Origin: Sipunculus nudus
Taxonomy: Eukaryota; Annelida; Sipuncula; Golfingiida; Sipunculidae
Direction of reading: 5' to 3'
Assembly: GCA_026874595.1 (NCBI GenBank)
Contig: CM049322.1
Coordinates: forward strand, 2,217,900-2,281,899
Length of the DNA: 64,000 bases
Shown here one piece after another: positions 1 through 64,000 of the stretch. The position numbers were made by a program, and so were the translations under genes. Position 1 is the first letter of the stretch. Every line of letters starts with the position of its first letter. The notes below the pieces were generated by a model. It saw nothing but the letters and a program-made list of their open reading frames with translations, was not told the origin of the DNA and did no database searches.

Positions 1-545
1 ACTCTGACTTCAATATGGTTTGCTAATTAATTTGACTACAGTATGGTGTGCTAACTGCTCTGACTGTAGTATGGTGTGCTAATTGCTCTAACTTTAATAT
101 GTTGTGCTAATTACTCCAGCTACAATATGTTGTGCTAATTACTGTGACTACAGTATGGTGTGCTAATTACTGTGACTACTCTATCGTGTGCAAATTACTG
201 TGAATACTGTATGGTGTGCTAATTACTGTGACTACAGTATGGTATGCTAATTACTCTTGACTACACTATGGTGTGCTAATAACTCTGACTACAGTTTGGT
301 GTGCTAATTACTCTGACTTCAATATGGTTTTAATTACTTTGACTACCGCATGGTGTGCTAATTGCTCTGACTGTAATATGGTGTGCTAATTTCTCTGACT
401 GAAATATGGTGTGCTAAGTGCTCTGACTGTAGTATGGTGTGCTAATTGCTCTGACTTTAATATGGTGTGCTTATTACTCTGACTACACTATGGTGTGCTA
501 ATTACTCTGACTACACTATGGTGTGTGTATTACTCTGACTACAAT
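1..545. repeat. 28-bp minisatellite
   Basis: About 19 imperfect head-to-tail copies of a 28-base unit of the form CTCTGACTACAGTATGGTGTG followed by CTAATTA. Copies differ by single substitutions (TGACTGTAG, TGACTTCAAT and so on) and the array is already running at base 1, so its left end is outside the window. It sits in the intron upstream of the CENATAC exon at 841. Bases 546-840 are plain intron ending in a splice acceptor (TTATATTTCTACAG). Confidence 0.9.
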
Positions 546-840
546 ATCACACATGAAGGGATAGATGGAATATTTGGACTTGACTGAGGTTAGGTGTTAT
601 ACAACATGAAACTAACAAAGACAAATACATGGAGCAGGATAACGTTACATTCTGATCCTACCAAAAATACATGTACATGGACCACTAATCTAATAATGAC
701 TTAGGGGTTCCATGTCAGAAATGCTTTAAAAGTAAGTAAGTGTTATCCATAAATTCTTGAATATGATTTTTAAAATCCTGGAAAATCTGGATAGGAATTT
801 AATTAACTCCTTTCTTGTTGTTGTTGTTATATTTCTACAG

Positions 841-976
841 GATAACGATAATGATGAAGATGACGAAGGGAATGTACACACAGGAGCGACTCCACCCTGG
901 TTGAAAGATGATGATGATGAGGAGGAAACAAAAAGTGGAGACATTGGTCCATCCCTCTCATTGTACCAGAAACAAG
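841..976 (+). CDS. CENATAC exon with GATPPW motif
   Basis: The acceptor is TATTTCTACAG ending at 840. The 136-base exon starts in frame 0 with [20 protein letters not shown], followed by the acidic run [18 protein letters not shown] and the tail LSLYQKQ, and ends at phase 1 in AAACAAG|GTGAAT (donor at 977). Reading on through the donor gives G-E-stop at 979-981, so use of this donor is needed for full-length protein. An alternative donor at ATTG|GTCCAT (near 955) has the same phase but a poor consensus and would delete the conserved GPS, so I prefer 976. The last 25 exon bases are also the first part of the 42-bp array unit. Confidence 0.9.
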
Positions 977-3900
977 GTGAATAGAAACACCTGTCCCTCT
1001 CGTTGTACCATAAGCAGGGTGAATAGAAACACCTGTCCCTCTCATTGGACCAGAAACAAGGTGAATAGAAACACCTGTCCCTCTCATTGTACCAGAAACA
1101 AGGTGAATAGAAACACCTGTCCCTCTCATTGTACCAGAAACAAGGTGAATAGAAACACCTGTCCCTCTCATTGTACCAGAAACAAGGTGAATAGAAACAC
1201 CTGTCCCTCTCATTGTACCAGAAACAAGGTGAATAGAAACACCTGTCCCTCTCATTGGACCAGAAACAAGGTGAATAGAAACACCTGTCCCTCTCATTGG
1301 ACCAGAAACAAGGTGAATAGAAACACCTGTCCCTCTCATTGGACCAGAAACAAGGTGAATAGAAACACCTGTCCCTCTCATTATACCAGAAACAAGTTGA
1401 TTAGAAACACCTGTCCCTCTCATTGTACCATAAACAAAGTGAATAGAAATATCTGTCCCTCTCATTGTACCATAAACAAAGTGAATAGAAATACCTGTCT
1501 CTCTCATTGTTCCAGAAACAAGGTGAATAGAAACACCTGTCCCTCTCATTGTACCAGAAAACAAGGTGAAAAGAAACACCTGTCCCTCTCATTTTACCAG
1601 AAACAAGGTGTATAGAAACACCTGTCCCTCTCATTGTATCAGAAACAAGGTGAAAAGAAACACCTGTCCCTCTCATTGTACCAGAAACAAGGTGAATAGA
1701 AACACCTGTCCCTCTCATTGTACCATAAACAAAGTGAATAGAAATACCTGTCCCTCTCATTGTTCCAGAAACAAGGTGAATAGAAACACCTGTCCCTCTC
1801 ATTGTACCAGAAAACAAGGTGAAAAGAAACACCTGTCCCTCTCATTGTTCCAGAAACAAGGTGAATAGAAACACCTGTCCCTCCCATTGTACCAGAAACA
1901 AGGTGAATAGAAACACCTGTCCCTCTCATTGTACCATAAACAAAGTGAATAGAAATACCTGTCCCTCTCATTGTTCCAGAAACAAGGTGAATAGAAACAC
2001 CTGTCCCTCTCATTGTACCAGAAATCAAGGTGAAAAGAAACACCTGTCCCTCTCATTGTACCAGAAACAAGGTGAATAGAAACACCTGTCCCTCTCATTG
2101 TACCATAAACAAAGTGAATAGAAATACCTGTCCCTCTCATTGTTCCAGAAACAAGGTGAATAGAAACACCTGTCCCTTTCATTGTACCAGAAAACAAGGT
2201 GAAAAGAAACACCTGTCCCTCTCATTGTTCCAGAAACAAGGTGAATAGAAACACCTGTCCCTCTCATTGTACCAGAAACAAGGTGAATAGAAACACCTGT
2301 CCCTCTCATTGTACCAGAAACAAAGTGAAAAGAAACACCTGTCCCTCTCATTGTACCAGAAACAAGGTGAATAGAAACACCTGTCCCTCTCATTGTACCA
2401 TAAACAAAGTGAATAGAAACACCTGTCCCTCTCATTGTACCATAAACAAAGTGAAAAGAAATACCTGTCCCTCTCATTGTTCCAGAAACAAGGTGAATAG
2501 AAACACCTGTCCCTCTCATTGTACCAGAAAACAAGGTGAAAAGAAACACCTGTCCCTCTCATTGTTCCAGAAACAAGGTGAATAGAAACACCTGTCCCTC
2601 TCATTGTACCATAAACAAGGTGAATAGAAACACCTGTCCCTCTCATTGTACCATAAACAAAGTGAATAGAAATACCTGCCCCTCTTATTGTTCCAGAAAC
2701 AAGGTGAATAGAAACACCTGTCCCTCTCATTGTACCATAAACAAAGTGAATAGAAATACCTGTCCCTCTCATTGTTCCAGAAACAAGGTGAAGAGAAACA
2801 CCTGTCCCTCTCATTGTACCAGAAAACAAGGTGAAAAGAAACACCTGTCCCTCTCATTGTTCCAGAAACAAGGTGAATAGAAACACCTGTCCCTCTCATT
2901 GTACCAGAAACAAGGTGAATAGAAACACCTGTCCCTCTCATTGTACCATAAACAAAGTGAATAGAAATACCTGTCCCTCTCATTGTTCCAGAAATAAGGT
3001 GAATAGAAACACCTGTATTTCTCATTGTACCATGAACAAAGTGAATAGAAATACCTGTCCCTCTCATTGTTCCAGAAACAAGGTGAATAGAAACACCTGT
3101 CCCTCTCATTGTACCAGAAAACAAGGTGAAAAGAAACATCTGTCCCTCTCATTGTTCCAGAAAACAAGGTGAAAAGAAACACATGTCCCTCTCATTGTAC
3201 CAGAAACAAGGTGTATAGAAACACCTGTCCCTCTCATTGTACAAGAAACTAGATGAATAGAAACACCTGTCCCTCTCATTGTACCATAAACAAAGTGAAT
3301 AGAAACACCTGTCCCTCTCATTGTTCCAGAAACAAGGTATATAGAAACACCTGTCCCTCTCATTGGACCAGAAAACAAGGTGAAAAGAAACACCTGTCTC
3401 TCTTAATCAACCGTGGACAAACACGATGCCTGCTTTGGTCTCAATTGTATAATATGCCTGTCTGAGATGGGATGCATATTGATATACACAGTGCAAGTCT
3501 ATCCGGCAGGTTGTGTGGCCTTTGTCCAGCAGGTTGTGTGGCCTTTGTCCAGCAGGTTGTCTGGCCTTTGTCCAGCAGGTTGTCTGTCCTTTGTCCGGCA
3601 GGTTGTCTGTCCTTTGTCTGGCAGGTTGTCTGGCCTTTGTCCGGCAGGTTGTCTGGCCTTTGTCCAGCAGGTTGTCTGGCCTTTGTCCAGCAGGTTGTCT
3701 GTCCTTTGTCCAGCAGGTTGTCTGTCCTTTGTCCGGCAGGTTGTCTGGCCTTTGTCCGTCAGGTTGTCTGGCCTTTGTCCGGCAGGTTGTCTGGCCTTTG
3801 TCCAGCAGGTTGTCTGGCCTTTGTCCGGCAGGTTGTCTGGCCTTTGTCCGTCAGGTTGTCTGGCCTTTTTCCGCATGTTGTCTGGCCTTTGTCTAGTAGG

Positions 3901-6900
3901 TTGTCTGGCCTTTGTCCGGCAGGTTGTCTGGCCTTTGTCCGGCAGGTTGTCTGGCCTTTGTCTGGCAGGTTGTCTGGCCTTTGTCCGGCAGGTTGTCTGG
4001 CCTTTGTCCAGCAGGTTGTCTGGCCTTTGTCCGGCAGGTTGTCTGGCCTTTGTCCGGCAGGTTGTCTGGCCTTTGTCCGGCAGGTTGTCTGGCCTTTGTC
4101 CGTCAGGTTGTCTGGCCTTTGTCCGGCAGGTTGTCTGGCCTTTGTCCGGCAGATTGTCTGTCCGTTTATGTTTAGTGTAACTGTGATAAGTTAACTGGGC
4201 ATTGATGGATTTTCAAGGAACACACTATTCACTACTCACCAAAATATTGTCTCACTCTGAGTTTTGATTCTCAGCAAAATGTGGTTAGAGGTCAGCAGAC
4301 TTCTTTGTATTGTCACCACATGGATATGATGAATATGGTGGATTTTGATGAAATTCAACAAAAATATTAGGCTATATGATATCTTGCCTAAGTCTGAATT
4401 ATGGCAAAATACATGCATTCTAAATGAGGTCAGAGGCCACCAGACTTTGGTGGCAATGTGATGACTTACAAAAAAATCCTGTGGATTATCAGGAAACTCA
4501 TAAATATTTACCTATAGAGATTCTCACCTGAGTTAAATTCTTGCCAAAATCCATGCATTTTTGATGAGGTCAGAGGTCACAAGACATACAGCAGACATTT
4601 TTAATGCATTCATGCAGTGCTCTTGTTCATCACCTTTGTTAAAGCACTGATCTACCTAATATACCTACATATACCTAATATACCTACATATACCTACATA
4701 TTTCAAAGTTATATAGCTTTCACCTGATATACATCAGCAGATGTTGATAATTATCTTCATTATGATTGTAAAGACTCCTTGATGAATCAAGCTGGTATTA
4801 CATTAATAACCGTGATCACACTGATCAACAGATACTACTCCAGATGTCACTTCCTTGTGTCCTACCTGTCTGTATATACTTGTATTAACAGACTTAAGAG
4901 TATTTTTCAGTAAATATAAAACTTCTTTGAATTTGTGCGCATATTTGTTTATGATTTAATACATAGAAAAAATGCAAGTATAATTGATTAATCGACACAG
5001 ATTAAGACATTAGTTCCTCTGTAGTTGTACTGCTCATTAGCCTTCCTGCCCTTTACAAGACCTGCTTTAGGGTAGTAGTAGTTCCACCGATTAAAATCCT
5101 GTACTATGCATTTTTAACTATATCTTAGTGGATATGGTAATGTATTTTGGAACAGAGGTAGTGAAATAGAAAATGAGAGATCAAGTGCAGCTTTCTTTAT
5201 AATGTAACCCTTGTCCTGTTAAATGCTGCTTTAATTTTCAGTGGAGCTCAACAGAAAGAGGAAGCTCCCCCCTGACAGAGTTGGTGCAAAGTTTGACCAC
5301 AAGGGGGTGACAGGTGCTGGGTGGCTGCCATCATTTGGATCTGTGTGGAGTAAACAAAGGAGAAAACACACACGGTCTGTAGATAAAAATAGAATGTGTA
5401 AATGAGTGGTATGTAGTACTAACTGGAACATACAAAGCTAAATGAAGGCAAGCATAGTAAACATTGAATTTATAAACGTGTAGCAATTACTACTCTGTTG
5501 AGAAAAAGCCTTTAAGGTGCCCATTCACCCATCTTTTGAAAAAGCATTCATTTGTTCTGGCTTCCTGAGTTTAAATATTAATGATCTAAGGGTAATTCTG
5601 GTTATGGAAAGTTCTTATAATAGTGCCTGCATGAAGGATGTATGAACTTGTTTATCAACAACGTTTTTGTAAACAAAGTAATGTTGACAAATGGAAAAAA
5701 ACATGTAACCTAAGTTGGTAAGTTGCATATATGTGGAGGTAGAAAGGTAACTTGTCACAAAACACCAATGCATTTGTTGAATTATGATTATTATGGCTAG
5801 GGGTGGGCCGATCATCGAGTTTTATTGAAAGTCAGTCGGTTTGCTGTCACTTTCAAGCTCTCGATTACCAAAGGCAACTATGGATAACATCATAATAATG
5901 GTTTTCTTTCAAGAATGCCTTTATGTTATAGGCAAATATTATTCTTCCATTTTTTACCACATTCCACGCTTCATATAATGAGCCTGTGTTCCCATATTAC
6001 TTCCGTATGTAACTGAGTATGACTCGGTAGATCCAAGAATGGAGGACTTATTAAAGTTATAATGTGTGAACTCGCAGGGAGCTGCAGCATTAGTGGATAG
6101 TTTTCTTAGGAGATGTACATTGCAAAATGTGGGCGGGATGGCATTAAAATACCCCATAAATTCTCCAGCAATGCCAATTTTGCGAGATTCTCTAAGTATA
6201 ATTGATGCCAGGTGCCACTGTTTAGACCATCCTTAACAAGTTCTTTGTTGGTGCTAACCCGGCCGGTCAAGTATTTTGATTTCTGCTGGTATTTTTTTCT
6301 CACTTGTCTGCAATTTTTTTGGTATAATCTGCCCCAAGCGCACCTGTGCCTGTAAAATCTGCCTTCATGTGCTAGAAAAACAGCCCCTCTAAAGGCCTAA
6401 TAAAATGAAGTTTTGCGGATACTATGTTTTTGACCGGGTTCCAACGCCGCCGCGGCGTTCATTTCCGGAGAACTTCTCTGAGACTACTAGACGGATTTTT
6501 CCGAAACTTACACCAATTATCGGGTCACATGTAAACTGGTGCCTAACCAAGTATCCTTGACCTCTGACCTTTCCTCTCTGCCCAGCGTCCATTTTTGCGT
6601 ATGTTTCCACACATAAACCCACATATCTCGGGAACCGTTTGTAGCCCTTGGATAGCTTTATAACATACACAACACATGGTGGCGCCACCTGCAACCATGT
6701 TTGCAGTGTCCATCTGTGCGTCTGCCTTGGGTTAAAATCACCCATATCTCTGCAGTGGTTTGACTAATTCACTTGAAAATTTGGCATGCGTATACAATCT
6801 AGATAGCTTTCTTGATTTTATGACAGGTGGCGCCACCTATATTCACGTTTATGCTGCAGACATCCAAGCTTATATCTCGGGAACCGTTTGACCGATTTGG

Positions 6901-8337: not shown

Positions 8338-9519
8338 GAGTTTGGCAATTCTTCGGAAATACCATCAAGGATTGGTTGAAAGGATCAAAACAAAAGAACC
8401 AATTAGCAGCATAACACTGGATGTGGTGCTCCTTCACAAAAGAAAAAAAAATATTTTCACAAAATCAGATCAGCAATTTTCTCGATGATCTCTTTGGATG
8501 TCCTTCATGTCTTATTAAGGGAATGTTACAGTAGATTTATGAATGTCTCTCAAAGAACCACTGAAGTGTGAAATCTTAGTCTGGATTTTTAACCTCAGGA
8601 CTTAACATTGATGCAGTTTTTTTCTCATTATTTCAGAGAGCAGTTCATGAGAAAAGGATACATGAAGACTCAGTTTGAATACAGTGACCATGAAATGCAG
8701 CATGGGTCGGCTAAACCAGGCAGAATGGGTAACAATGATGTCAAGGTCATCAGGACGGGTGGCAGAGATGCAAACAGTAGCCTGGGTGGTCAGGAACATG
8801 AGGTGGTGTCAAATGTCCAGCTGAGGTACACAGGTAATAACCACCAGGGGGCGCCAAATGTTCAGCCGAGTTACACGGGTCATAACCAACAGGGAACACA
8901 AGCGGGCTTATGGGAGAGTTCGAAAATTCCCAAAACTGTGCCTAATAATGGAAATATTCAGCAAGTGTCACATGACGCTGGGTTAACAGTGTCCTCCTCA
9001 GCCAACCAGGCCACAGACACTGTCTCTTCATGTACAGTGTCTGGTTATTACGTCAGTGAAGCTTCAGGTGTTAGCTCGGGGCATAACAATGTGCTGGCAG
9101 ATAACATATCGCAAATATTAAATAAAAACTCACGGACAAACACTTTGTACAACAAGCGTATGGTGAAGCCTTGTACTTCCACACAGACCATTAGTAATGT
9201 TACACAACCATTTAGAGTTTTTCATTCAATGACTGATCGGCAGGAACGGGGAGAAACTAACTACAATAAAACCTCTGATAACTGGTCAGTGGTCAAGAAT
9301 AATTCAGGTGTGACATGTAAAACAAAAGGAGTTGGCGGAGCTAACTTCACACTACCAGGTGATTGGCAGGCTGGACATTCAGATACTCTCCTAGAGGGCA
9401 GCACTCATTCTTCCCAGGGGTCATTTGAGTACAAAAGGAAAAGATCATATGGAAGTCTTGTTGCTTCGGACAGAATCAGAATCAGTGCCAGTCTTCTTAA
9501 TCCAGACCAGAAGAAATAA
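841..9519 (+). CDS. CENATAC (CCDC84) gene, last three exons, 5' incomplete
   Basis: Gene model: join 841-976, 5242-5374, 8637-9519. Phases agree at both junctions (phase 1, then phase 2). CENATAC is known as the centrosome-linked factor needed for splicing of AT-AC minor introns in the U12 spliceosome; it works in the nucleus with TXNL4B. The joined frame contains the family's C-terminal signature in order: [11 protein letters not shown], an acidic stretch, GDIGPS, then [12 protein letters not shown] and [10 protein letters not shown], and RRKHTREQF. The spacing between GPS and LPPDRVG is 15 residues, as I recall it for the human protein. The N-terminal zinc-finger exons would lie before base 1. 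Unlike vertebrate CENATAC, which ends soon after this motif block, the frame continues for about 290 residues of low-complexity sequence. Family assignment rests on recalled human motifs; splice joins are inferred. Confidence 0.92.
952..3405. repeat. 42-bp minisatellite built on the CENATAC exon end and splice donor
   Basis: About 57 copies of a 42-base unit. The unit reads TCCCTCTCATTGTACCAG then AAACAAG (25 bases, identical to the last 25 bases of the exon ending at 976) followed by GTGAATAGAAACACCTG (17 bases, the start of the intron). Common variants are TGTTCCAG for TGTACCAG, TAAACAAAG for GAAACAAG, and a 43-base version with GAAAACAAG and GTGAAAAG. The 43-base version recurs every 4 to 8 units (near 1553, 1806, 2185, 2521, 2818, 3115), which shows higher-order amplification. 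Since 42 is a multiple of 3, several frames stay open for hundreds of codons; these are not genes. In the CENATAC frame every standard unit carries a TAG. Confidence 0.97.
3499..4165. repeat. 23-bp minisatellite in CENATAC intron
   Basis: About 29 copies of a 23-base unit CAGGTTGTCTGGCCTTTGTC plus CGG. Variants are CCAG, CCGT and CTGG at the end of the unit, and TGTCC for TGGCC. Each unit contains a pyrimidine-rich stretch ending in (C/G)GCAG|GTTG, so it looks like a 3' splice site set directly against a GT. It lies in the same intron as the 42-bp donor-like array, 90 bases after that array ends. Long open frames across it come from the repeat and do not code. Confidence 0.95.
4166..5241. other. 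CENATAC intron, weak ~140-bp repeat then unique sequence
   Basis: From 4230 to 4600 three degraded copies of a segment of about 140 bases can be seen (GAGGTCAG at 4288, 4427 and 4566, each followed by CA and AGAC, and each preceded by TTGCCAAAAT or AGCAAAATG). A short TACCTACATA/TACCTAATA run is at 4650-4700. The remainder holds no gene I can see. The intron ends with the acceptor CTGCTTTAATTTTCAG at 5241. Confidence 0.55.
5242..5374 (+). CDS. CENATAC exon with [12 protein letters not shown] motif
   Basis: The 133-base exon enters at phase 1 (G from 976 joins TG to make Val) and reads [20 protein letters not shown] then [19 protein letters not shown] and RRKHT. This is the most conserved C-terminal block of CENATAC. 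I place the donor at ACACG|GTCTGT (5375) at phase 2, because joining to 8637 gives RRKHTREQF, which lines up without gaps with the recalled human RRWQSRHQF. If the intron is retained the frame runs nine more residues (SVDKNRMCK) to a TGA at 5403-5405. That would make a protein close to the vertebrate length, so a short isoform is possible. Confidence 0.92.
5406..6399. other. CENATAC intron, no gene seen
   Basis: AT-rich intron sequence. At 5795-5880 there is a GGGTGGGCCGATCATCGAG segment rich in CGAT and GATT words. A matching CAATCGGTTTGTTC ... GGTCGATTATG ... GGTGGGCC segment occurs at 7985-8055, so 5795-8055 may be one compound or nested transposon around the 278-bp repeats. No coding frame is supported. 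Confidence 0.35.
6400..7712. repeat. 278-bp tandem repeat, about 4.5 copies
   Basis: A 278-base unit repeats exactly in register: the word TTTGACTAATTC or its variants begins at about 6760, 7038, 7316 and 7594. Shared blocks in each unit are GATTTTATGACAGGTGGCGC followed by CACCTA; CTGCAGACATCCAAGCT; ATATCTCG(G/A)GAACCGTTTG followed by (A/C)CCGATT; and CAGCGTC or AGTGTCC followed by TCTG. The first copy (6400-6760) and the last are more diverged. Minus-strand open frames of about 75 codons recur once per unit and carry no domain I recognise. Confidence 0.9.
8280..8337. repeat. TA microsatellite
   Basis: Almost pure (TA)n interrupted by TTTATTTA in the middle. It lies in the last CENATAC intron, 300 bases before the terminal exon. 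Confidence 0.97.
8637..9519 (+). CDS. CENATAC terminal exon, long low-complexity tail
   Basis: The acceptor is TTTCTCATTATTTCAG at 8636. A joins CG from 5374 to give Arg, then [19 protein letters not shown] follows, and the frame stays open for 293 codons to TAA at 9517-9519. After the conserved EQF the tail is rich in Ser, Thr, Asn, Gln and Gly with no hydrophobic core, so it is probably disordered. Two short internal repeats are visible near 8809-8900 ([13 protein letters not shown] and [13 protein letters not shown]). The last 40 residues turn basic ([11 protein letters not shown]). I know of no domain match. The codon pattern, the single long frame and the downstream poly(A) signal support a real terminal exon. 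The function of the tail is unknown; phosphorylation-rich RNP contacts would be a guess. Confidence 0.88.
8841..8855 (+). promoter_or_regulatory. CTCF-like motif inside CENATAC terminal exon
   Basis: CCACCAGGGGGCGCC matches all 15 positions of the commonly quoted CTCF core CCASYAGRKGGCRSY. It also encodes part of the tail repeat (NHQGAP), so it may be chance. It lies near the 3' end of CENATAC, upstream of the intergenic block. Confidence 0.35.
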
Positions 9520-32400: not shown

Positions 32401-35400
32401 CGAGGTACACGTAGGTTTTTTATATTTAAGCAAAGACTGACTGATCTGCGCGCACACTTAAAATATTTGGACACAGAGAAAAATGCAAAAATGTATGTCT
32501 GATTTTCCTGAGATTCATAATGGGTCAATGCTGGGGGTTTTCAAATTTATCTGTGGACTGGTTGGCATTTGCATCAGATTCACCAATCGCGAGTGCCACT
32601 GTAAGTTTTATAAACATTAAGCAGTTACTTTTTATCGTAATATATAGCTAATATAACAGAGGAAAACAATAAATGTTTACTTGTCTTATTATCTGAAATT
32701 ATATGGGCAGCCTGAAACACTCAAAAGGAAAAAAATCCATAAAATGCTCGCGACATTACGTACATGTTACGGCGGCTAGACAATGATATGTACGCGACAT
32801 TACGTACATGTTTCTGGCGGTTGGACCATGATACTCGTGACTTTCCGTTCATGTTACGGGCGATTGGACCATGCCACTTGTCACATAACGTACATGTTAC
32901 GGGCGGCTGGACCATGATACTCGCGACAATACGTTCATGTTACGGGCGATTCGACCATGATACTCGAGGCATTACGCACATGATACGGGCGGCTGAACCA
33001 TGATACTTGCGACATAACATACATGTTACGGGCGGCTGGACCATCATACTCTCGACATTACGTCCATGTTACGGGCGGCTGAAGCATGCTACTTGCGACA
33101 TTACATACATGTTACGGGCGGCTGGACAATGATACTCGAGACATTACATACATGCTACGGGCAGTTGAACCATGAAACTCGAGCGATTTAACGATGATAC
33201 TCGCGACATAATTACAAGTTACGGGCGGCTGGAATATGATACTTGCGACATTACGTACATGTTACGGTCAGATAGACCAAGATAATACAGACCAGTCTGA
33301 GGCAGTGGTCAGATGCAGTAGAGATCTATATCTGATGAAATATTTCCTTTAAATACGATAATGTCATCTCAGCACAATCTTGTGTCCTTTCTTTAAAATA
33401 AGTTACATTTGCATTATGTTTCATTGTATTGAAAATAAATATTAACAGCAGAAAGAAGAAAGTGCCAAAAATGGTTGAATTAATGATAGTGTACTAGCAT
33501 AGCAAGCAAAAAACTTTATCTGCATGTATAAGATAATGATAGCTTTGTACCCCTTCTCCATATACAGGCGATCAAACAGCTGAACCAGCAGACCGTAGGT
33601 GATATTAAGATGATGGCTGAGGGGATTTTCTCCATGGCGAACGCTACGCAAGATAAGGAATCTATCCAGCAATGCTTCGGTGAGTGGTCTTATTTTTCCA
33701 CGCAAGGACCTTGATTCAGCAGCCTCTCTGGCTTCTGCTTCACGATTAATAAATAATCAAGAAAGTGTTAAAGACGAAACCACAACGCTATTCAAATCAA
33801 ACGACCAGCACATTGTTAACACAGGCTCCAGTTAAAAACGCATGAACAAGACAGGGACGGCTTACATGGCTTTTATTATTTGTTAGATTCTCGATGTTTG
33901 ACAGAAACCATATGCCGGATGTTCTCTTAAAACTAGTGCACGAGAGCAAATCGATTTGTTCAGTTGTCTTATTCATATTTTTTTGGGAAAAGCGGCTGGC
34001 TAAATCAATTTTTTAGAGCATAGTCACGCACTTTAAAAATATATATGAAAATGACGCCGAGTTCCATGAGAGTATTGTAAAATCTTTAATAACCTTCAGT
34101 TATGTACCTATGCATAATAACGTCCGACTATGGTCTTCAAATAATCCCTAGAAACAATTTTATCAATATTAAATGAAGGCAAATATTATATATAGGTCGC
34201 TTATTAAAATTTATATATTTAAGTCACTAACGTTATATTATTTACATATACGCCTATAATTATAAATATATTTAGCCCACAAGTATTCATAAAAAAAACG
34301 CACAAAGAACTGCGTGTTGTTTATAGCCTAGTATTCAGAAATTGCACTTTGAAACCACTAAAGGCAAACTACACAGTGCAAGTGTTTCTAAAAACTTACC
34401 TAAGACATTGCTTGTATACAGATACATGCCTTCCTAAAATAAACGCTGCTTAAAAACCTAACGCTTGGCATTTATGAACTCTCGATGGGTAAAAGCATAG
34501 ATTACTGTCCGCCTTGCTAATGTTGACATGTGCGATAGATAGGTAATAATACAACGGCACACTTAATTATAAATACTTTTATTTTTATCCAAAATCACAT
34601 CAAAAACTATATTAAAATCTCCTCCTACTAAAATATTGTCTGTATTTTCTATATGCTGCTGTATTAAGTTATAGAATCTAATGTAAAATCTATTTTGTTC
34701 ATTTGTCATATTTGGAGCATAAATGTTTATTACCTTATATTCTATTCCCTTTATTTGTAATCCAGTTATTAGAATCCTTCCATCTTGAGAACTGTGAACC
34801 TTTAACTCATCTTCTATTTCTAAATTTTTTTTAATGAATATAGCACATCCTCTGCTAGATGAGTTTGCATTACTATAAAAAACTTTCCCATTCCATTCAT
34901 TATTCCACTGATTCTCTATTTCTGTAGTTCCATGTGTTTCTTGTAAGAATAGTATATCAGCCCCATGCAATTTGAACAAAAAAAAATTGGAACAAAAGAA
35001 ATTAAGAAAACAGTAGAAGAAAACTTAAAAAAACCAATAGATTATTTATCATTAACTGATTTTCTAGAATCAAATACCCGTCAAAGAAACGTTATACATG
35101 GAGACAAAAGAATGGTAACATTTGCTCTAGATTAGATTATTGGTGGATCTGACAAACGTTACAAGATACAGTTAAAGATACATATATTGAAACATACATT
35201 CATTCAGATCATTGCGCAGTAATTTTGGATTTGGAACACACATCAGATAAAGAAAAAAAAGGGTAAAGGCGATTGGAAATTAAATTGAGATATATTACTA
35301 GAAGCAGGATTTGTGGAAAATCTGAACAAAGAAAAAAAAGTATGGGATAGAGAGTACAGTATTATTAAAGATGACAGGGTTAAATGGGAATTGTTTAAAT

Positions 35401-38400
35401 TCAAGATAAGACAGTTTAGTATATCATATTGTAAAAAAGAGCCAAAGAAAGAAGAACAAAAGAAGAGAGTCTTATAAAACACAAGGCTGTATGCTTAGAT
35501 CTAAAATTAGATGGTTAGAACATGGAGAAAAAAAATTCTAAATATTTTCTCAACTTAGAGAAGTATAATAGTGGACAAAAATGTATAAGAAAATTAGTGT
35601 CAACAACAGGAGAAATAGTAACCAAAGGAAAAGAAATTTTCGAAATGCAAAAGGAATTTTATCAGAAGTTATATTGTTCACAATTGCAAAAAAACACTCA
35701 GGAGGAGTTGGATGAATACTTGGATAAAATAAAGTTGCCAATGTTATCCAAAATTAAATTCTGAATATTTAGGTAAAGAAATTACAGAAGAAGAATGTTA
35801 TTTAACTCTAAAAACATTTGCAAAAAACAAAAGCCCAGGAAATGATGGTATATCAGCAGAATTTTATCAAAAGTTTGGCCCCTTTTTGGCTCAACTATGT
35901 AAGCATCATTTAAGCGATCTTTTTAAAAAGGGGAATTGTCATCCTCTCAAAAACAGGCAATAATAACATTAATTGACAAGAAAAAGGATAGAACTTTATT
36001 AAAAAGTTGGAGGCCCATATCTCTAATAAACGTAGATTACAAAATTTTATCAAAAACTTTAGCATTAAGATTAAAAAAGATCATGCCAGAAATTGTTAAT
36101 ACAAATCAAACTGGATATATTCAGGAAGATATATAGGGAAAAATATAAGAATTTTATCAGACCTTTTAGAATATACAAGAATAAAAAAATTACCAGGGAT
36201 ACTAATCAGTGTAGATTTTGAAAAAGCTTTCGATTCCTTGGAATGGAACTTTATGATATCAGTGTTGGAGAAATATAAATTCCCATCCATATTTATTAAT
36301 TGGATTCACATTTTAGGTAATAATATTAAAAGCTGTACAATAAGTAATGGGGTTACATCTGGATATTTTAAAGTTAAAAGAGGGGTTCGACAAGGAGACT
36401 CTTTGTTCCCATATTTATTTGTTGTAGCTGCTGAAGTAATGGCAGAATACATAAAAAGTTCAGAAAAGATAAAAGGATTAGAAGTTTCAGGATATCATTT
36501 TAAGTTACTTCAATATGCAGATGATACGGTAGGAATTACAAAAGACAAAAGTTCAGCTAAATATTTCCTTGAGATCATTAAACAATTTGGTATTTTTAGT
36601 GATTTAAAAATTAATTATGAAAAATGTGAAGGTATGTGGATAGGTCAATATAGAAATAATAAGCAGAAACCACTAGGAATAATATGGCATGATAATCCAA
36701 TAAAGTTTTTGGGAGTTTGCATTTCATATGATAAAAAAGAATCTGAGGATTTAAATTTTTTCTCTAAGATGAATTCAGTGCAAAATACGTTGAAAATGTG
36801 GAACCAGAGAGGACTGATATTTTTAGGAAAAATACAAGTAGCAAAGTCATTCTTTTTTTCAAAGTTTTATTATTATATCTCTAATGCATCAGTACTAGTA
36901 GACTTTTGTAAAAGAGTTGATAAACGTTTCTTCAGATTTATGTGGAATGGAGGTAGAGAGGGAATTAAGAGAGTAAAATTAGTACAAAAAGTGGAAAATG
37001 GTGGTCTAAATGCTCCACATGTAAAATCAATAATTTATACATCAAGAGTAGCATGGCTTAAAAGATACATAAAGGTAGGAGAAAGACCATGGAAGGTGTT
37101 GTTTAGATATTATTTACAGATACTCTGTCCAGATGAAGAGTTGTTGCTTAACAGTAATATAGAAGTAAAAGATATAAAATTATTTAACATTCCAAGCTTT
37201 TACAAAGAAGTCTTAAAAAGTTATATATTGTTACGAATGAAATATTTTGAAAACGTTCCCGTTGAAGAGCAAATTATTTGGAATAATAAATTATTAAAAA
37301 TTGACAATGCTTTTACTTATTGGAAACAGTTTTCAGATGTAGGAATTAACATAGGATTAGATTTGTTTGATTACATGGGCAATATCAAGCCTTTTGAATT
37401 TTGGATTGGAAAAGGTATCTCAGGAATACACTTTTTAAAATGGTATGCCCTTGTGTCTAAGTTTAAAAATCTTAAGCTGCAAAATTTAAGTTTTAAAGAG
37501 CCCTTTTCTTTTGCTTTTTTAATAGGGAGCAGATACTCAAATCTGGTGCATCTTCGAAAGTAATATGTCAGTGCTTTGTGGGTACTATATTAAGAAAAGG
37601 GCCATACATTCCAAATATAGCAAGTTGCATGTCAGACGTAGAGGTAGATTATAAGAAAGTATACAAGCTTCCCTTTAAAATATGTTTGGACACAAAATCT
37701 AGAGTGTTTCAATATAAATTGCTTAATAATTGTTTAGTAAATAATTATTGGTTATGTAAATGTAAGATTAAAGATTCTGATTTATGTACTTTTTGTAAAA
37801 GAGCGCAAGAACAATTAATACACTTGTTTTGGTCTTGTTATAAGGTTAGAACACTATGGACAGATATTGAAAGGTGGTGTAAACAAAAAGGTATCAATAT
37901 TGATATAAATATCTCTACATTCATGTATGGTGCTCCAAGGGCACCTGTAGTAGGAAATTTAATTTTGTTAGTGGTGAAACAATGTATAAACAATGCTAGA
38001 AATAGTCAAGAAGGTCTATCTTTTGATAAAGCATGTCAGTAAATCTGGAAATATGCCAGAATAGAATTTATGATGGCACCAAAAAAATAACTTGGTAACT
38101 AAATTTCATAGTAGATGGGGAGAGTTTAGTTATGCTAGAGATTTCATAAATTATGGATATACAGATAATTAGAGGATTTACTCTGAGAATACAGATATTT
38201 TATACATATATACTGGAGTATTATCAGATATTTTGTTTTGGGAATATATATAACACCATATGGAATTGAATAATACAATTTATATTGGTAAGACAGTGGT
38301 TCTTTATACACATATATATTGAAAGGATATTGAATTGTTTTGGAAACTTTCATTGTTGGTTTTGTATATATTGTATTTGTTTGTTTGTAATAAAAAAATC

Positions 38401-41400
38401 TGGGGACAGAGATTCCAGGGAAAAAAAAACTTTTAATTTTGGAAATTTTAAATGCTTATAGGTTACGGTTGAAAAGAAATCGTTAAATATGTTAATTCAG
38501 TACTCGTATTGCTTGGAAAGTATTTGCCGCTATATATCCGGTGATTTTACATATGTAATTATAGAAAAGCCGTTTAATACGTCATTACGTTGAATACGCG
38601 CATTCGCCTTCTTTTGTCTTTCCTGTTCTTCTAATTTTACCCTGCTCATAATTATACGGATTTGCTTTGCTTTGTAGGGTGCGGTATAAGCAGTATAGAC
38701 AAATTCATCTTTGGAACGAGCGTGACTGATGCAAAACGTTGGCCTTGGGTGGTTCGTACTTACCATGAAAAAAACTACCTCAGTATAATGGAATTTTTTA
38801 AAATAAAAATCATGACTCTGGAAAGGTCAATTTAATATTGTAATACACTACCTAATTATTTGACTACTTTTAATTAATTGTACATGTATTTGTATTAAAT
38901 AATGGAATAGCTGCAACTAACGTCTGTTATCATTGACACAACACCACTTGATTAGTAAACAGTAATTAATTGTACATGTATTTGTATTAAATAATGGAAT
39001 AGCTGCAACTAACGTCTGTTAACATGGACACAACACCACTTGAGTAGTAAACATGAAAAACTGTAATTAATTGGACATGAATATTTATTAAATAATAGAA
39101 TAGCTCTAAATAACGTTTGATAACATGGACACTACACTACCTGATTAGATAACAGTGATTAATTGTACATGAATGTTTATTAAATAATAGAATAGCTGTA
39201 AATAACGTCTGACAACATGGACATTACACTACCTGATTAGTTAACAGTAATTAATTGTACATGAATGTTTATTAAATCATAGAATAGCTGTAAATAACTT
39301 CTGATGTTATGGCATTACAATATCGGATTAGTTAACAGTAATTAATTGTACAAGAACGTTTATTTAATAATAGAATTGCTGTAAATAACGTTTGATAACA
39401 TGGACACTACACTACCTGACTAGTTAAGAGTGATTAATTGTACATGAATGTTAATTAGATAAAGAATATCTGTAAGTAATGTTTGAAAACACAGACACTA
39501 CACTACCTGATTAGTTAACAGTGATTAATTGTACATGAATGTTTATTAAATCATAGAATAGCTGTAAATAACTTCTGATGTTATGGCACTACAATATCGG
39601 ATTAGTAAACAGTAATTACTTGTACAAGAACGTTTATTTAATAATAGAATTGCTGTAAATAACGTTTGATAACATGGACACTACACTACCTGACTAGTTA
39701 ACAGTGATTAATTGTACATGAATGTTTATTAAATAATAGAATAGCTGTAAATCACGTCTGATGATATGGGCACTACACTACCTGATTAGTTAACAGTAAT
39801 TAATTGTACATGAATCATTTATAATAGCTGTAAATCACATTTAATAAGGTGGATACTACACTACCTTTTTAGTTTACAGTAATTAAATAATAGAATCGCT
39901 GTAAATAACCTTTGATAACATGAAAACTACACTACCAGATTAGTTAACAGTGATCAATTGACTATGAATGTTTTTTAACTATTGGAATAGCTGTAAATAA
40001 CGTCTGGTAACATGAACACTACACTACCTGGTTAGTTAACAGTAATTAATTGTACATGAATTTGTATAAAAATTGAATATCTGTAAATAACGGTTGATAA
40101 CGTTGATAATACTCTTCCTGATTAGTTAAGAGTAATTAATCCTACATGAATGTTTATCAAATAATAGAATAGCTGTAAATAACGTCTGATAGTATGGGCA
40201 CTACAATATCTGATTAGTAAACAGTAAATATTTGTACATGAACATTAATTAAATAAAAATACTTCTAAATAACGTTTGATAACATGGACACTACACTACC
40301 TGATTAGTTAACAGTGATTAATTTTATTTGAATGTTTATTAAATAATAGAATAGCTGTGAATCACGTCTGATGATATGGGCACTACACTACCTGATTAGT
40401 TAACAGTAATTAATTGTACATGAATCATTTATAATAGCTGTAAATCACATTTAATAAGGTGGATACTTCACTACCTTTTTAGTTAACAGTAATTAAATAA
40501 TAGAATCGCTGTAAATAGCCTTTGATAACATGGAAACTACACTACCAGATTAGTTAACAGTGATCAATTGACTATGAATGTTTTTTTAACTATTAGAATA
40601 GCTGTAAATAACGTCTGGTAACATGAACACTACACTACCTGGTTAGTTAACAGTAATTTATTGTACATGAATTTGTATTAAAAATTGAATATCTGTAAAT
40701 AACGGTTGATAACGTTGATAATACTCTACCTGATTAGTTAAGAGTAATTAATTCTACATGAATGTTTATCGAATAATAGAATAGCTGTAAATAACGTCTG
40801 ATAGTATGGGCACTACAATATCTGATTAGTTAACCGTAAATATTTGTACATGAACATTAATTAAATAAAAATATCTGTAAATAACGTCTGGTAACATGGA
40901 CACTACACTACCTGATTAGTTAACAGTGATTAATTTTATTTGAATGTTTATTAAAAAAATAGAATAGCTGTAAATTATGTCTGACAACATAGAAACTACG
41001 CTCCCTGATAAGGTATCAGTAATTAATTGTACATGTATGGAAATTAAATAAAGAATATCTGTAAATAACGTTAATAAACATGGACACAATACTACCTGAT
41101 TAGTTAACAGTGATTGATTGTACATGAATTTTTATTAAATCATAGAACAGCTGTAAATAACTTCTGATGTTCTGGCACTACAATATCTAATTAGTTAACA
41201 ATAATTAATTGTACAAGAACGTTTATTTAATAATAGAATTGCTGTAAATAACGTTTGATAACTTGGACACTACGCTACCTGATAAGTTAACAGTAATAAT
41301 TGTACTTGAATGTTTATTAAATAATAGAATAACAGTAATTAATTGTACATGACTCAACCATAATAGCTGTAAATCACATTTGATAAGGTGGATACTACAC

Positions 41401-44400
41401 TACCTTTTTAGTTAACAGTAATTAGTTGTACAAGAATGTTTATTTAATAATAAAAAGGCTGTAAATAACGTTTGATAACATGGACACTACACTAACTGAC
41501 TAGTTAACAGTGATAAATTGTACAGGAATGTTTATTAAATAATAGAATGGCCTGAAATAACGTCTGACAACATGTAAACTACACTACCTGGTTAGTTAAG
41601 AGTAATTAATTGTACAAGAATGTTTATTTTATAATACAATTGCTGTAAATAACGTATGATAACATGGACACTTCACTACCTGATTAGTTAACAGTAATAA
41701 ATTGAACATGAATGTTTATAAAAATAGAAAAAAATATTAATAACGTTTGATAACTTGGACACTACGCTACTTGATTAGTTAACAGTAATAATTGTACTTG
41801 AATATTTATTATATAATAGAATATCTGTAAATTACGTTTCATAACGTAGACACTACACAACCTGATTAGTCAACAGTAATTTATTGTACAAGATTGTTTA
41901 TTAAATAATAGAATAGCTGTAAATAACGTCTGATAACATGGGCACTACACTACCTGAGTAGGTAACATTAATTAATTGTACAGGAATGTAAATTAAAGAA
42001 TGAATATCTGTAAATAACGTTTGAAAACATGGACTCTACACTACCTGATTAGTTAACAGGGATTAATTGTAAATGAATGTTTTTTAAATAATAGAATATC
42101 TCTAAATTACGTTTCATAACGTTGACACTACACAACCTGATTAGTCAACAGTAATTAATTGTTCATGAATTTTTTTAAATAATAGAAAAGCTGTAAATAA
42201 CGTCTGGTAACATGAACACTACACTACCTGGTTAGTTAACAGTAATTTATTGTACATGAATTTGTATTAAAAATTGAATATCTGTAAATAACGGTTGATA
42301 ACGTTGATAATACTCTACCTAATTAGTTAAGAGTAATTAATTCTACATGAATGTTTATCGAATAATAGAATAGCTGTAAGTAACGTCTGATAGTATGGGC
42401 ACCACAGTATCTGAATAGTTAACCGTAAATATTTGTACATGAACATTAATTAAATAAAAATATCTGTAAATAACGTTTGATAACATGGACACTACACTAC
42501 CTGATTAGTTAACAGTGATTAATTTTATTTGAATGTTTATTAAATAATAGAATATCTCTAAATTACGTTTCATAACGTTGACACTACACAACCTGATTAG
42601 TCAACAGTAATTTATTGTACAAGAATGTTTATTAAATAATAGAATAGCTGTAAATAACGTCTGATAACATGGGCACTACACTACCTGAGTAGTTAACATT
42701 AATTAATTGTACAGGAATGTAAATTAAATAATGAATATCTGTAAATAACGTTTGAAAACATGGACTCTACACTACCTGATTAGTTAACAGGGATTAATTG
42801 TACATGAATGTTTATTAAATAATAGAATATCTCTAAATTACGTTTCATAACGTTGACACTACACAACCTGATTAGTCAACAGTAATTAATTGTACATGAA
42901 TTTTTTTTAAATAATAGAAAAGCTGTAAAGAACGTCTGGTAACATGGGCACTACACTACCTGGTTAGTAAACAGTAATTAATTTTATAAGGATCATTTAT
43001 GACAGCTGTAAATCACATTTGATAAGGTGGATACTACACTACCTTTAGGTAACAGTAACTAATTGTACACGAATTTGTATTAACAATTGAATAACTGTAA
43101 ATAACGTTTGATAACGTTATCACTCTACCTGATTAGTTAAGAGTAATTAATTCTTCATGAATGTTTAATAAATATTAGAATAGCTGTAAATAACCTCTGA
43201 TAACATTGGCACTACAATATCTGATTAGTTAACAGTAATTAATTGTACATGAATGTTTATTAAATAATAGAACAAAATCTTAATAACGTTTGATAACTTG
43301 AACACTACACTGCCTGATAAGTTAACAGTAATTAATTGTATATGAATGTTAATGAGATAATAGAATTTCTGTAAATAACATTTGATAAGGTGGATACTAC
43401 ACCACCTGATTAGTTAACAGTAAATAATTGTACATGAATGTTTATTAAATAATAGAATAGCTGTAAATAACGTTTGATAACGTTGTCTCAACACTTCCTG
43501 ACTAGTTATGAGTAATTAATTGTACATGAATGTTAATTAAATAAAGAATATCTGTAAATAACGTTTGAAAACAGGGACACTACACTACCTGATTAGTTAT
43601 CAGTGATTAATTGTACATGATTGTTTATTAAATAAAGAATATATGTAAATAACGTTTGAAAACATGGAAACTACACTACCTAATTAGTTAACAGTAAATA
43701 ATTGTACATTAATGTTATTTAAATAATATAATTGCTGTAAATAACCTTTGATAACATGGACACTACACTACCTGATTAGTTAACAGTGAACAATTGAATA
43801 TGATTGTTTTTTAACTATTATAATAGCTGTAAATAACGTCTGGTAACATGAACAAAAAAGAATGTCCATTTATAATAGCTGTAAATAACGTCTAATAACA
43901 TGGGCACTACACTACCTGATTAGCTAACTGTAATTCATTGCACAAGAATCATTTATAATAGCTGTAAATCACATTTGATAAGGTGGATACTACACTACCT
44001 TATTAGTTGACAGTTATTCATTGTACATGAATTTTTACTAAATAATAGAATAGCTGTAAATAACGTTTGATAACGTTGTCACTACAATACCTGATTAGTT
44101 AAGAGTAATTCATTGTACATGAATGTTTATTAAATAATAGAACAAAATCTTAATAACGTTTGATAACTTGAACACTACACTGCCTGATAAGTTAACAGTA
44201 ATTAATTGTATATGATTGTTAATTAGATAATAGAATTTCTGTAAATAACATTTGATAAGGTGGATACTACACCACCTGATTAGTTAACAGTAAATAATTG
44301 TACATGAATGTTTATTAAATAATAGAATAGCTGTAAATAACGTTAGATAACGTTGTCACTATACTACTTGATTAGTGAAGAGTTATTTATTTTACTTAAA

Positions 44401-45869
44401 TATTAACTAAAAAATAGAATAGCTGTACATAACGTCAGACAACATGGACACTGCACTACCTGATTAGTTAATAGTAATTAATTTTACATGAATGCTAGTT
44501 ATGCCTTTAGGGCTTTTCATGACGAGTTAACCTTTCCAAGTGAGTATGTGGAAACACCGACTCCAAAATAATAACAAAATAAAAATAATAAAAGATGACA
44601 TTAATTATAAAAAGATCAACATTGACCATTGTTAATCGATAACACATAAACCTATATTTTGGATAAATTTTTTTCTCATATAACAGAATAAAAAAATAAG
44701 CTCCGGCCACCTGACTTGTTAAGATACTTTTTGCGTCCAATGCACTTTTGTGTTCGGAGCATAGCTACATTTCTCTGTATGTACTTTACACATTGCAATT
44801 GCAGTTAAGCTCTGTGTTATTTTCTTTACACGTGTATTAAGGGAATACAAAACAATGTGGTAGTGAGTATAATTCCAGAACAAAATTAAAATGCGCTCCC
44901 TCTTGGGAAATAAAACTGTCAAAATGTCGCATCTTGTTTGAGATTAATGATAAAAAAAGCATTTTATAGCTATCCCGAGAATTGGGCACTTTTAAATTTT
45001 ATACCCCATAAAGGAAATCTCAGTTGCTACACTGAGAAATATTAACCTTACTCTCTACCAACTATATGTTCAAGATACGTATCTCCAAGGATTTTTTCAC
45101 ACTTTTGATCTTTGACATTTTACTTTACAGGTGGGGATTTTTCTTTATGGAATATATTGCACTGGAGCCTTAATTGGTCCTAAGTGGGTCCTCAGCACTG
45201 CCTATTGTGCATACACGTAATAAATTTATTTCATTTCTATAATGTTCAAATCTTATCGATTGGGTAAATGAATTGATTTTCACAAGGAATGCCTTTTCTT
45301 TTGATGTTAAATGTGTTAAGACATTGGATATTAAATATGAAAATATGACTTGATGCCCATATAAGATTAAAACTAAGTAAACGGATTACCCTTAAGGTAT
45401 TCATTGTGCAAAATGGTTATTCAAAGGCGTATTTGTTGGTTGCAAATGGAGCTATCCAGGATTAAAATACAGAGTATTAAACGGTTAATCACTAACACCG
45501 TGCTTAAATTCTACTCTGATATTCAATCATAATAATTAAACATAACTAATGTTGCCTTAGTTGGGCGAGATACACACTATTGGATGTTTGCTTAGGAAAG
45601 TCTGGACTGCATGTGAACGTCACATATCATGACTTCACAACTATATCATGGACAAGTGCTGCGAACATCAGGTAGTACTTTTTTTTATTCATCTTATTTA
45701 TGTTTCAGTACCCAAGAGGGAATGGGTGTGTTGGCAGGTGGACACTTGATAGACTTAAGCGAGAATAAACACATGCAGAATGTTTTGGTGGCCAGAACCC
45801 ATATCAGTCCAAAGTATCAGAACTACAGTGACAGGTCCGAAATTTCACTTTGTCGATTTCAGTCGGTTA

Positions 45870-46013: not shown

Positions 46014-49000
46014 AGATAGGACAGAAAAATATATTTCCGCATATTTGGTTTCTTCCTGAATATTTACTGTTGGTATTAAAATATTTTAAGATCCGTGCAC
46101 AATGTTGTCTAGATGTTATCAATTAAGATGATGAGACAGCTTTTCTATACCTGAAAAAATATTGAATTTTATTGGTGTCAACCGCTTCAAGATTAAATGT
46201 TATGTTGACTGTGTATATATGCATCTTTCTTCTCTGGATTCCATTCTGTAATCGTTCTTATTGCTGGGTAATAATAAAGAGAACCGCTCGACAAGTGACT
46301 GAAACCAATCTTCGGGCATTAGTGTTCCTTTAAGCCCACAAAGCCCTCACCGGTGCTAGGTGACAGAAATATCATTGAGAAAATGATATATAAAAGGAAT
46401 GTTACCAGCACATTTCAAATTTTCTGCTTGTCTTTCGATATTTAATTTTTTCTTCAGTGGCCAAAGAACAAAAGTCAGTCACATACAAATAAACTTAATG
46501 ACAGGGTTTGACTTTTAAGTTAAACCTAGGAATAACCTCGGACATAAAACATGCAAGCCGATAGCATTGGGCTCGTAGTGACGTGTCTAGGGGAAGGGGA
46601 ACACATCGAGACCTCGGACATAAAGCATAAAAGATGATAGCCTGGGGCTCGTGGTAACGTGTCTAGTTGAAGGCGAACACATTGAGACCTCGGACATAAA
46701 GCATAAAAAATAATAGCCTGGGGCTCATAGTAACGTGTCTAGTTGAAGGCGAACACATTGAGACCTCGGACATAAAGCATAAAAGATGATAGCCTAAGGC
46801 TCGTGGTAACGTGTCTAGTTGAAGGCGAACACATTGAGACCTCTGACATAAAGAATAAAAGATGGTTGCCTGGGGCTCATGGTAACGTGTCTAGTTGAAG
46901 GCGAACACATTGAGACCTCGGACATAAAGCAAAAAAGATGATAGCCTGGGCTCGTGGTAACGTGTCTAGTTGAAGGCGAACACGTCCAGGCCACGGACAT
47001 AAAGCATAAAAGATGATAGCCTGGGGCTCGTAGTAACGTGTCTAGTTGAAGGCGAACACATTGAGACCTCGGACAAAAAGCATAAAAGATGATAGCCTGG
47101 GGCTGGTGGTAAGGTGTCAAGTTGAAGGCGAACACATTGAGACCTCGAACGATAAACGAAGCATAAACGAATCGAAGCATAAACGATGATAGCCTGGGGC
47201 TCATGGTAACGTGTCTAGTTGAAGGCGAACTCATTGAGACCTCGGACATAAAGCAAAAAAGATGATAGCCTGGGCTCGTGGTAACGTGTCTAGTTGAAGG
47301 CGAACACGTCCAGGCCACGGACATAAAGCATAAAAGATGATAGCCTGGGGCTCGTAGTAACGTGTCTAGTTGAAGGCGAACACATTGAGACCTCGGACAA
47401 AAAGCATAAAAGATGATAGCCTGGGGCTGGTGGTAAGGTGTCAAGTTGAAGGCGAACACATTGAGACCTCGAACATAAAGCAAAAAAGATGATAGCCTGG
47501 GCTCGTGGTAACGTGTCTAGTTGAAGGCGAACACGTCCAGGCCACGGACATAAAGCATAAAAGATGATAACCTGGGGCTCGTGGTAACGTGTCAAGTTGA
47601 AGGCGAACACATTGAGACCTCGGACATAAAGCATAAAAGACGATAGCCTGGGGGTCATGGTAACGTGTCTAGTTGAAGGCGAACACATTGAGACCTCGGG
47701 CATAAAACATAAAAGATGATAGCCTGGGGCTCATGGTAACGTGTCTAGGGGAAGGCGAACACACCAAGATCTCGGACATAAAGCATACAAACCGATAGCC
47801 AGGGGCTCGTGGTAACGTGTCTAGTTGAAGGCGAACACATCGAGACCTCGGACATAAAGCATAATAAATGATAGCCTGGGGGCTCGTGGTAACGTGTCTA
47901 GTTGAAGGCGAACACATTGAGACCCCTGACATAAAGCATAAAAAATAATAGCCTGGGGCTCATAGTAACGTGTCTAGTTGAAGGCGAACACATTGAGACC
48001 TCTGACATAAAGAATAAAAGCCGATAGCCTGGGGCTCGTGGTAACGTGTCTAGTTAAAGGCGAACACATTGAGACCTCGGACATAAAGCATAAAAGATGA
48101 TAGCCTGGGGCTCGTGGTAACATGTCTAGTTGAAGGCGAACACATTGAGACCTCGGACATAAAGCATAAAAGATGATAGCCTGGGGCTCGTGGTAACGTG
48201 TCTAGTTGAAGGCGAACACATTGAGACCTGGACATAAAGCATAAAAAATAATAGCCTGGGGCTCATAGTAACGTGTCTAGTTGAAGGCGAACACATTGAG
48301 ACCTCGGACATAAAGAATAAAAGCCGATAGCCTGGGGCTCGTGGTAACGTGTCTAGTTGAAGGCGAACACTTTGAGACCTCGGACATAAAGCATAAAAGA
48401 TGATAGCCTGGGGCTCGTGGTAACGTGTCTATTTGAAGGCAAACACATTGAGACCTCGTACATAAAGCAAAAAAGATGATAGCCTGGGCTCGTGGTAACG
48501 TGTCTAGTTGAAGGCGAACACGTCCAGGCCACGGAAATAAAGCATAAAAGATGATAGCCTAAGGCTCGTAGTAACGTGTCTAGTTGAAGGCGAACACATT
48601 GAGACCTCGGACATAAAGCATAAAAGATGGTTGCCTGGGGCTCATGGTAACGTTTCTAGTTGAAGGCGAACACATTGAGACCTCGGACATAAAGCATAAA
48701 AGATGATAGCCTCGGGCTCGTGGTAACGTGTCTAGTTGAAGGCGAACACATTGAGACCTCGGACATAAAGCATAAAAGATGATAGCCTGGGGCTCGTGGT
48801 AACGTGTCTAGTTGAAGGGAAACACGTCCAGGCCACGGACAAAAAGCATAAAAGATGATAGCCTGGGGCTGGTGGTAAGGTGTCTAGTTGAAGGCGAACA
48901 CATTGAGACCTCGGACATAAAGCAAAAAAGATGATAGCCTGGGCTCGTGGTAACGTGTCTAGTTGAAGGCGAACACGTCCAGGCCACGGACATAAAGCAT

Positions 49001-63800: not shown

Positions 63801-64000
63801 TGTATTGGTTTTCGTATGGCTACAGTTACATTTGGTGTTAAGCTTCTTTTGCAGTCGCCTGTTCTATTGGTTTTCGTATGGCTACAGGTACATTTGATAT
63901 GAGGTTTCTTTTGCAGTCGCCTGTTCTATTGATTTCGTCTTGCTATAGGTACATTTGGTGTTAGGTGTCTTTTGCAGTCGCCTGTTTTATTGGGTTTTGT
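60826..64000. repeat. 62-bp minisatellite, about 51 copies, runs off the window
   Basis: The unit is TTGGTTTTCGTATGGCTACA then GGTACATTTGGTGTTAGGTA, TCTTTGGCAGTCGCCTGTTG and TA. Frequent variants are CAGATACATTTGGTGATAGG and TATCTCTGGCTGTCGCC. A block of 787 bases is duplicated: the shortened unit TTGTTGTCAGGTTTGTATTG occurs at 62075 and 62862, with the same unit order on both sides. As 62 is not a multiple of 3, each frame reads through three unit phases (period 62 residues). Frames of up to 227 codons (WFSYGYRYIWC) are repeat artefacts. Confidence 0.96.

Follow-up and report, generated by a model that had tools for sequence, protein, structure and literature searches.

A splice-donor minisatellite of 58 units at a conserved CENATAC exon end in Sipunculus nudus

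A splice-donor minisatellite, with a unit of reportedly 12 bp, is said to have been described in the human gene IFI6 (6-16, G1P3) by Turri, Cuin and Porter in 1995. Papers that discuss this gene mention a minisatellite with multiple splice donor sites (PMC4526556, PMC2915984, PMC3618361, PMC2572611), and one of them reports three mRNA species that arise when downstream repeat units serve as donors (PMC4526556). A larger, stop-bearing version of this arrangement lies in the CENATAC (CCDC84) gene of the sipunculan worm Sipunculus nudus, within a stretch of 64,000 bases (the window; contig CM049322.1 of assembly GCA_026874595.1, positions 2,217,900 to 2,281,899, forward strand). As in IFI6, a splice donor lies within the repeat unit; here the array begins with the exon end itself as its first unit, and by anatomy it is a splice-donor minisatellite of the IFI6 kind. 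It differs from IFI6, where the unit is short and alternative use yields different protein isoforms, in having 58 units of 42 bp (a copy number we take to exceed that of IFI6) and an in-frame stop that truncates every later choice. Literature searches aimed at donor arrays or minisatellites at exon ends returned IFI6, by way of citing papers only, and other published cases may well exist; the parts examined of the literature on earthworm metallothionein and DAT1 describe no donor array.

Tandem donor sequences also occur in genes for minor-spliceosome proteins. The U11 small nuclear ribonucleoprotein (snRNP)-binding splicing enhancer (USSE) of U11-48K and U11/U12-65K is reported to consist of tandem U12-type donors that are not used for splicing and activate an upstream 3' splice site (PMC5473595). 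Unlike these, the CENATAC donors are U2-type, number 58 and start with a real exon end. The tandem U12-type 5' splice sites that define the USSE are absent, as no exact [AG]TATCCT[TC] occurs in 977-5241; three patterns for the U12-type donor and branch consensus gave no exact match on the + strand of that interval. Another likeness is found in potato RdRp, where a tandem duplication across an intron-exon boundary is described as copying splice signals (PMC4974935). There, one duplication produced a new intron (PMC4974935), whereas here many copies sit inside an intron that is old, since its position and phase match human intron 9; duplication did not create it.

Human CENATAC is reported to be essential and to promote a minor-intron subtype (PMC8280824). 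The same source reports that donor-shifting mutations at the human exon 9/intron 9 junction cause mosaic variegated aneuploidy and cost the protein its final 64 residues, and that in human cells CENATAC without its two most C-terminal motifs gave no rescue and aggravated the defect (PMC8280824). The junction altered by those alleles, in which a donor shift drops the C-terminal 64 residues, has the same residue and phase as the one described here (PMC8280824). The disease alleles are point and small-deletion changes; here the change is a repeat array in a reference genome.

The junction and its repeat array

The relevant parts of the locus are as follows.
841..976, + strand: CENATAC coding exon, penultimate or near-last of those seen, with the acceptor TTTCTACAG before 841; its 3' end is homologous to that of human exon 9 and ends in phase 1 (PF14968, 8y6o_R, c.805)
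977..5241, + strand: intron at a position homologous to human intron 9, with two arrays, one of 42 bp and another of 23 bp (3502-4160)
5242..5405, + strand: next CENATAC coding exon, encoding the conserved C-terminus, with the acceptor TTTTCAG before 5242 and, if it is the last exon, a TGA at 5403-5405 (Pfam and 8y6o_R matches)
952..3396, + strand: 42-bp minisatellite of 58 units, the first of which spans the exon/intron boundary (Tandem Repeats Finder and unit cut)

When 841-976 is spliced to the sequence from 5242 on, the encoded stretch of 99 residues matches the Pfam family CCDC84 (PF14968; 111.1 bits, E 1.2e-31, cut-off 25.3) over family positions 237-321 of 330, with the conserved C-terminal end motifs of CENATAC/CCDC84 present; the N-terminal zinc fingers of the family would be encoded by upstream exons beyond the window. 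The same stretch matches PDB 8y6o chain R (8y6o_R, 332 residues, Centrosomal AT-AC splicing factor) at E 3.9e-24. By these matches the gene is identified as CENATAC, in agreement with the preliminary description of this DNA, and 5242-5405 is likely its last coding exon.

The exon end is placed at 976 because residue and phase there match human c.805. The number of residues between GPS and LPPDRV is equal in the window protein and in 8y6o_R; Q45 of the window protein aligns with E268, and the exon ends after base 1 of the next codon, just as human CENATAC exon 9 ends at c.805, base 1 of codon 269. This agreement rules out an exon end at 955, the alternative that the preliminary description had itself named, or elsewhere. 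On this alignment, the 976 donor corresponds by homology to the old, conserved human exon 9/intron 9 junction, and the match in residue and phase with no length change relative to human suggests that the exon end predates the array.

Tandem Repeats Finder reports the array at 952-3403 with period 42, 58.2 copies and 92% matches. Cut at the unit start, it comprises 58 units, 49 of 42 bp and nine of 43 bp, and the last unit ends at 3396. Unit 1 (952-993) consists of 25 exon bases (952-976) and 17 intron bases (977-993), which bears out the earlier claim that the unit joins the last coding bases to the first intron bases and that unit 1 is the boundary itself. Unit 1 matches the column-by-column consensus of the array. 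Its exact sequence is found in ten of the 58 units, itself counted, and the units average 96.0% identity to it once the extra base of every 43-bp unit has been removed. A blastn-short search of the window (E up to 1, 901-3420 masked) found the 42-bp unit nowhere else.

A GT is kept at the donor position in 56 of the 58 units, the exceptions being units 11 and 55. The donor nonamers (slash at the splice point) are AAG/GTGAAT in 28 units, AAA/GTGAAT in 11, AAG/GTGAAA in 10, AAA/GTGAAA in two and AAG/GTGTAT in two, with five unique nonamers that include those of the two GT-less units. The preliminary description had spoken of about 57 near-identical 5' splice sites. That number of copies does follow the boundary; their equality holds less well, as 27 of the 57 share the nonamer of the true boundary, 13 units carry a G-to-A change at -1, 10 have A at +6 (AAG/GTGAAA) and two lack the GT.

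The copies are not uniformly diverged. Unit 2 lies four edits away from its neighbor, unit 1; units 3-10 hardly differ among themselves, with a mean pairwise edit distance of 0.57, compared with 3.39 for the more varied units 11-58. The units form recurring types that carry private changes. A fixed higher-order period was sought in units 11-58 and rejected: over lags 1-12 the sole dip was a shallow one, at lag 7 (2.71 versus 3.72 at lag 1), and unit types alone are claimed. This distribution is consistent with seeding of the array by the exon end, a recent expansion of its near part and a greater age of its far part.

In every canonical unit, a stretch resembling an acceptor, CCTGTCCCTCTCATTGTACCAG, also precedes the donor by 7 bases, and its CCAG is retained in 42 of the 58 units. 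The units in this respect resemble 7-base microexons, whose inclusion would shift the frame.

Reading frames and choice of donor

Two short features at the boundary bear on the reading frame.
974..982, + strand: first donor, AAG/GTGAAT, the sole frame-keeping one (nonamer tally and frame reading)
982..984, + strand: in-frame TAG, read by any transcript that uses a later donor or retains the intron

Read in the frame of the exon, the intron opens GGT GAA TAG. Because this stop sits between donors 1 and 2, all of the 57 later unit positions (units 2-58, two of them without GT) end alike, in ...YQKQGE-stop, and retention of the whole intron leads to the same stop at 982-984. The earlier statement that only the first donor keeps the frame, with TAG two codons on, is thus correct. 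A truncation here would remove the same C-terminal motifs as were studied in human, since by alignment the lost part includes the motifs missing from the human alleles. The exon junction would lie more than 50 nucleotides (nt) beyond the stop, the usual mark of targets of nonsense-mediated decay (NMD), for 56 of the 57 later unit positions, donor 2 being the exception.

How the spliceosome might pick the first of many similar donors, a puzzle raised in the preliminary description, has a published answer in human reporters, in which the first of equal tandem donors is reported as predominant (PMC6783452). In that designed human-cell library, the first site was predominantly used when both tandem 5' splice sites were consensus and was favored at equal strength; exceptions were mostly governed by sequence away from the site (PMC6783452). 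Exon context at this locus points in the same direction. Donor 1 closes an exon of 136 nt, and every later donor lengthens it by 42 or 43 nt. GAAGAW/GATGAW motifs occur at 4.5 per 100 nt in 841-951 versus 0 in 977-3396. The first donor scores 4.63, a moderate value on a matrix fit for ranking only, and 2 of 285 GTs outside the array in 1-6000 score at or above it. From order together with exon context, we infer that donor 1 is favored.

Several observations weigh against this preference. GAR motifs overall differ little between the exon before the array (8.1 per 100 nt) and the array (6.5). The first donor shares its nonamer and a predicted hairpin with many copies, so that no local mark sets it apart. 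The published library contained two donors rather than 58, and its authors report conflicting earlier evidence (PMC6783452).

The hairpin shared by the donors is a post hoc lead, tested after it had first been spotted in a fold.
975..992, + strand: hairpin predicted at the donor, AGGUG-AAUAGAAA-CACCU, and found again in most units

At canonical donors this predicted 5-bp hairpin has an energy of -5.9 kcal/mol, and that value or lower is reached in 39 of the 58 unit contexts. Equal stability was reached by 16 of 5000 donor-keeping shuffles and, away from the listed arrays, by 74 of 2225 GT contexts. The hairpin is weak evidence for a regulatory reading, and it is present at the true donor as well. 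A strong RNA structure was rejected: a 300-nt fold over the first units is unremarkable (z -0.18, with 83 of 200 shuffles equally stable), and for three consensus units 28.8% of 500 shuffles fold as well or better. Rfam gave 0 matches at the gathering score in the window.

Origin of the array and alternative explanations

The arrangement is probably best explained as a boundary-seeded minisatellite that is tolerated through first-donor preference with some leakage. Tandem duplication of a 42-bp piece across the old CENATAC exon 9/intron 9 boundary would have seeded the minisatellite, which would then have expanded to 58 units within the intron. The gene would survive because the spliceosome mainly takes the first donor, which is the earliest in the transcript, ends a 136-nt exon and lies beside GAT/GAA-rich coding exon. 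Some splicing may leak to later donors, giving GGT GAA TAG transcripts that lack the C-terminal motifs and would mostly be NMD-prone. The array itself would be a passenger in a region rich in minisatellites, close to neutral or with a mild lowering effect on expression, rather than an evolved regulator. The anatomy, the gene identity, the conserved junction and the reading frames are established by the sequence analysis, and donor usage, leakage with its effect and the direction of copying are inferred. Tandem arrays, listed by hand from Tandem Repeats Finder rows as 14 stretches, cover 21,304 of the 64,000 bases, and it is therefore not far-fetched that one array should have caught a splice site.

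Conservation of the copied donors speaks to the same question. No extra retention of the GT in the copies was found, as 27 of 41 neighboring column pairs are likewise changed in at most two units. Purifying selection on the GT is thus not demonstrated, since the dinucleotide is kept no better than the rest of the unit, as expected of a passenger. The same result tells against a length-dependent attenuator, in which added donors would raise the odds of a poison junction and array length would set the ratio of full to truncated CENATAC. Such an attenuator could draw on the truncation shared by 57 of the 58 unit positions, 56 of them placing the junction over 50 nt downstream of the stop (two positions lacking GT), and its leakage could matter, as human proteins without the two most C-terminal motifs are reported to have worsened the defect (PMC8280824). 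We consider it unlikely. The dose-sensitive switch proposed in the preliminary description has, like its U1 sponge, found no support so far. A more specific version, in which a variable donor array serves as a heritable dial whose length sets the share of truncated CENATAC transcripts and tunes minor-intron splicing between individuals, is a long shot. If true, the dialed truncation would be the same one that causes aneuploidy in people.

Preference for intron-proximal donors would make most transcripts unproductive, with full protein coming from a minority of them or from shorter-array alleles. Conflicting earlier evidence noted in PMC6783452 and the identical nonamer at 28 of the 58 donors lend this some room, but at equal strength that paper's own results favor the first donor, late donors would create exons of up to about 2.5 kb, and the human gene is reported to be essential (PMC8280824). 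Such a choice is improbable.

The direction of copying could also have been the reverse, with the array overwriting the exon end by gene conversion or slippage into the exon. The identity of unit 1 with the array consensus extends to its 17 intronic bases, whereas the adjacent unit 2 is four edits off, and residues 39-43 (LSLYQ) are unlike the human row. Phase, however, is kept, with no length change relative to human. Because the human protein has aligned residues there, the exon part of the unit appears more likely to be the source than an insertion, and overwriting seems quite doubtful.

That the copy number is partly an assembly artefact is very improbable, given the recurring types and private changes seen among the units and the direct join of unit 1 to an intact exon. 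Sequestration of U1 snRNP by the array, or its membership in an autoregulatory loop through the minor spliceosome, deserves almost no credence: many U1-type sites do lie within one intron, and other minor-spliceosome genes are reported to carry the USSE with its tandem U12-type donors (PMC5473595), but the donors here are U2-type and only moderate (4.63 on the ranking matrix), and the intron contains no exact U12-type donor or branch consensus. The suggestion that CENATAC regulates itself is poorly motivated for the same reasons, and also in view of the reported role of CENATAC in promoting a minor-intron subtype (PMC8280824); self-regulation through U12-type sites was rejected because the + strand of 977-5241 holds no exact match to the U12 consensus.

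Surroundings and significance

Other repeats lie close to the junction. The second array of the same intron (3502-4160, 23 bp x 28.7) has the unit TCCGGCAGGTTGTCTGGCCTTTG and contains 27 copies of AGGT and 24 of CAGGTTGTC. Its pyrimidine-rich stretch ending in CAG/GT is like a weak recursive-splicing motif, probably by chance. The intron preceding exon 841-976 holds a 28-bp array of about 20 copies (1-547) that is cut by the window start. Farther away are very large tandem arrays at 38871-44494 (~92 bp), 46535-51672 (~76 bp) and 60829-63998 (~62 bp). Pieces of a long interspersed nuclear element (LINE)-like element occupy 34563-38042, with reverse transcriptase (PF00078) and zf-RVT (PF13966) domains and an endonuclease domain (PF03372) on the other strand. 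A 308-residue open stretch on the + strand (8593-9519), with no Pfam match at E 0.01, is possibly a large coding exon.

The locus amounts to a natural version of a classic splicing experiment, in which one acceptor faces 58 donor positions at a nearly fixed spacing of 42 bases and only the first leads to full protein. It offers a natural test of how the choice among nearly equal donors is made, as the cell probably must take the first to obtain full protein. The array sits on the very junction whose misplacement causes a chromosome-instability syndrome in humans.
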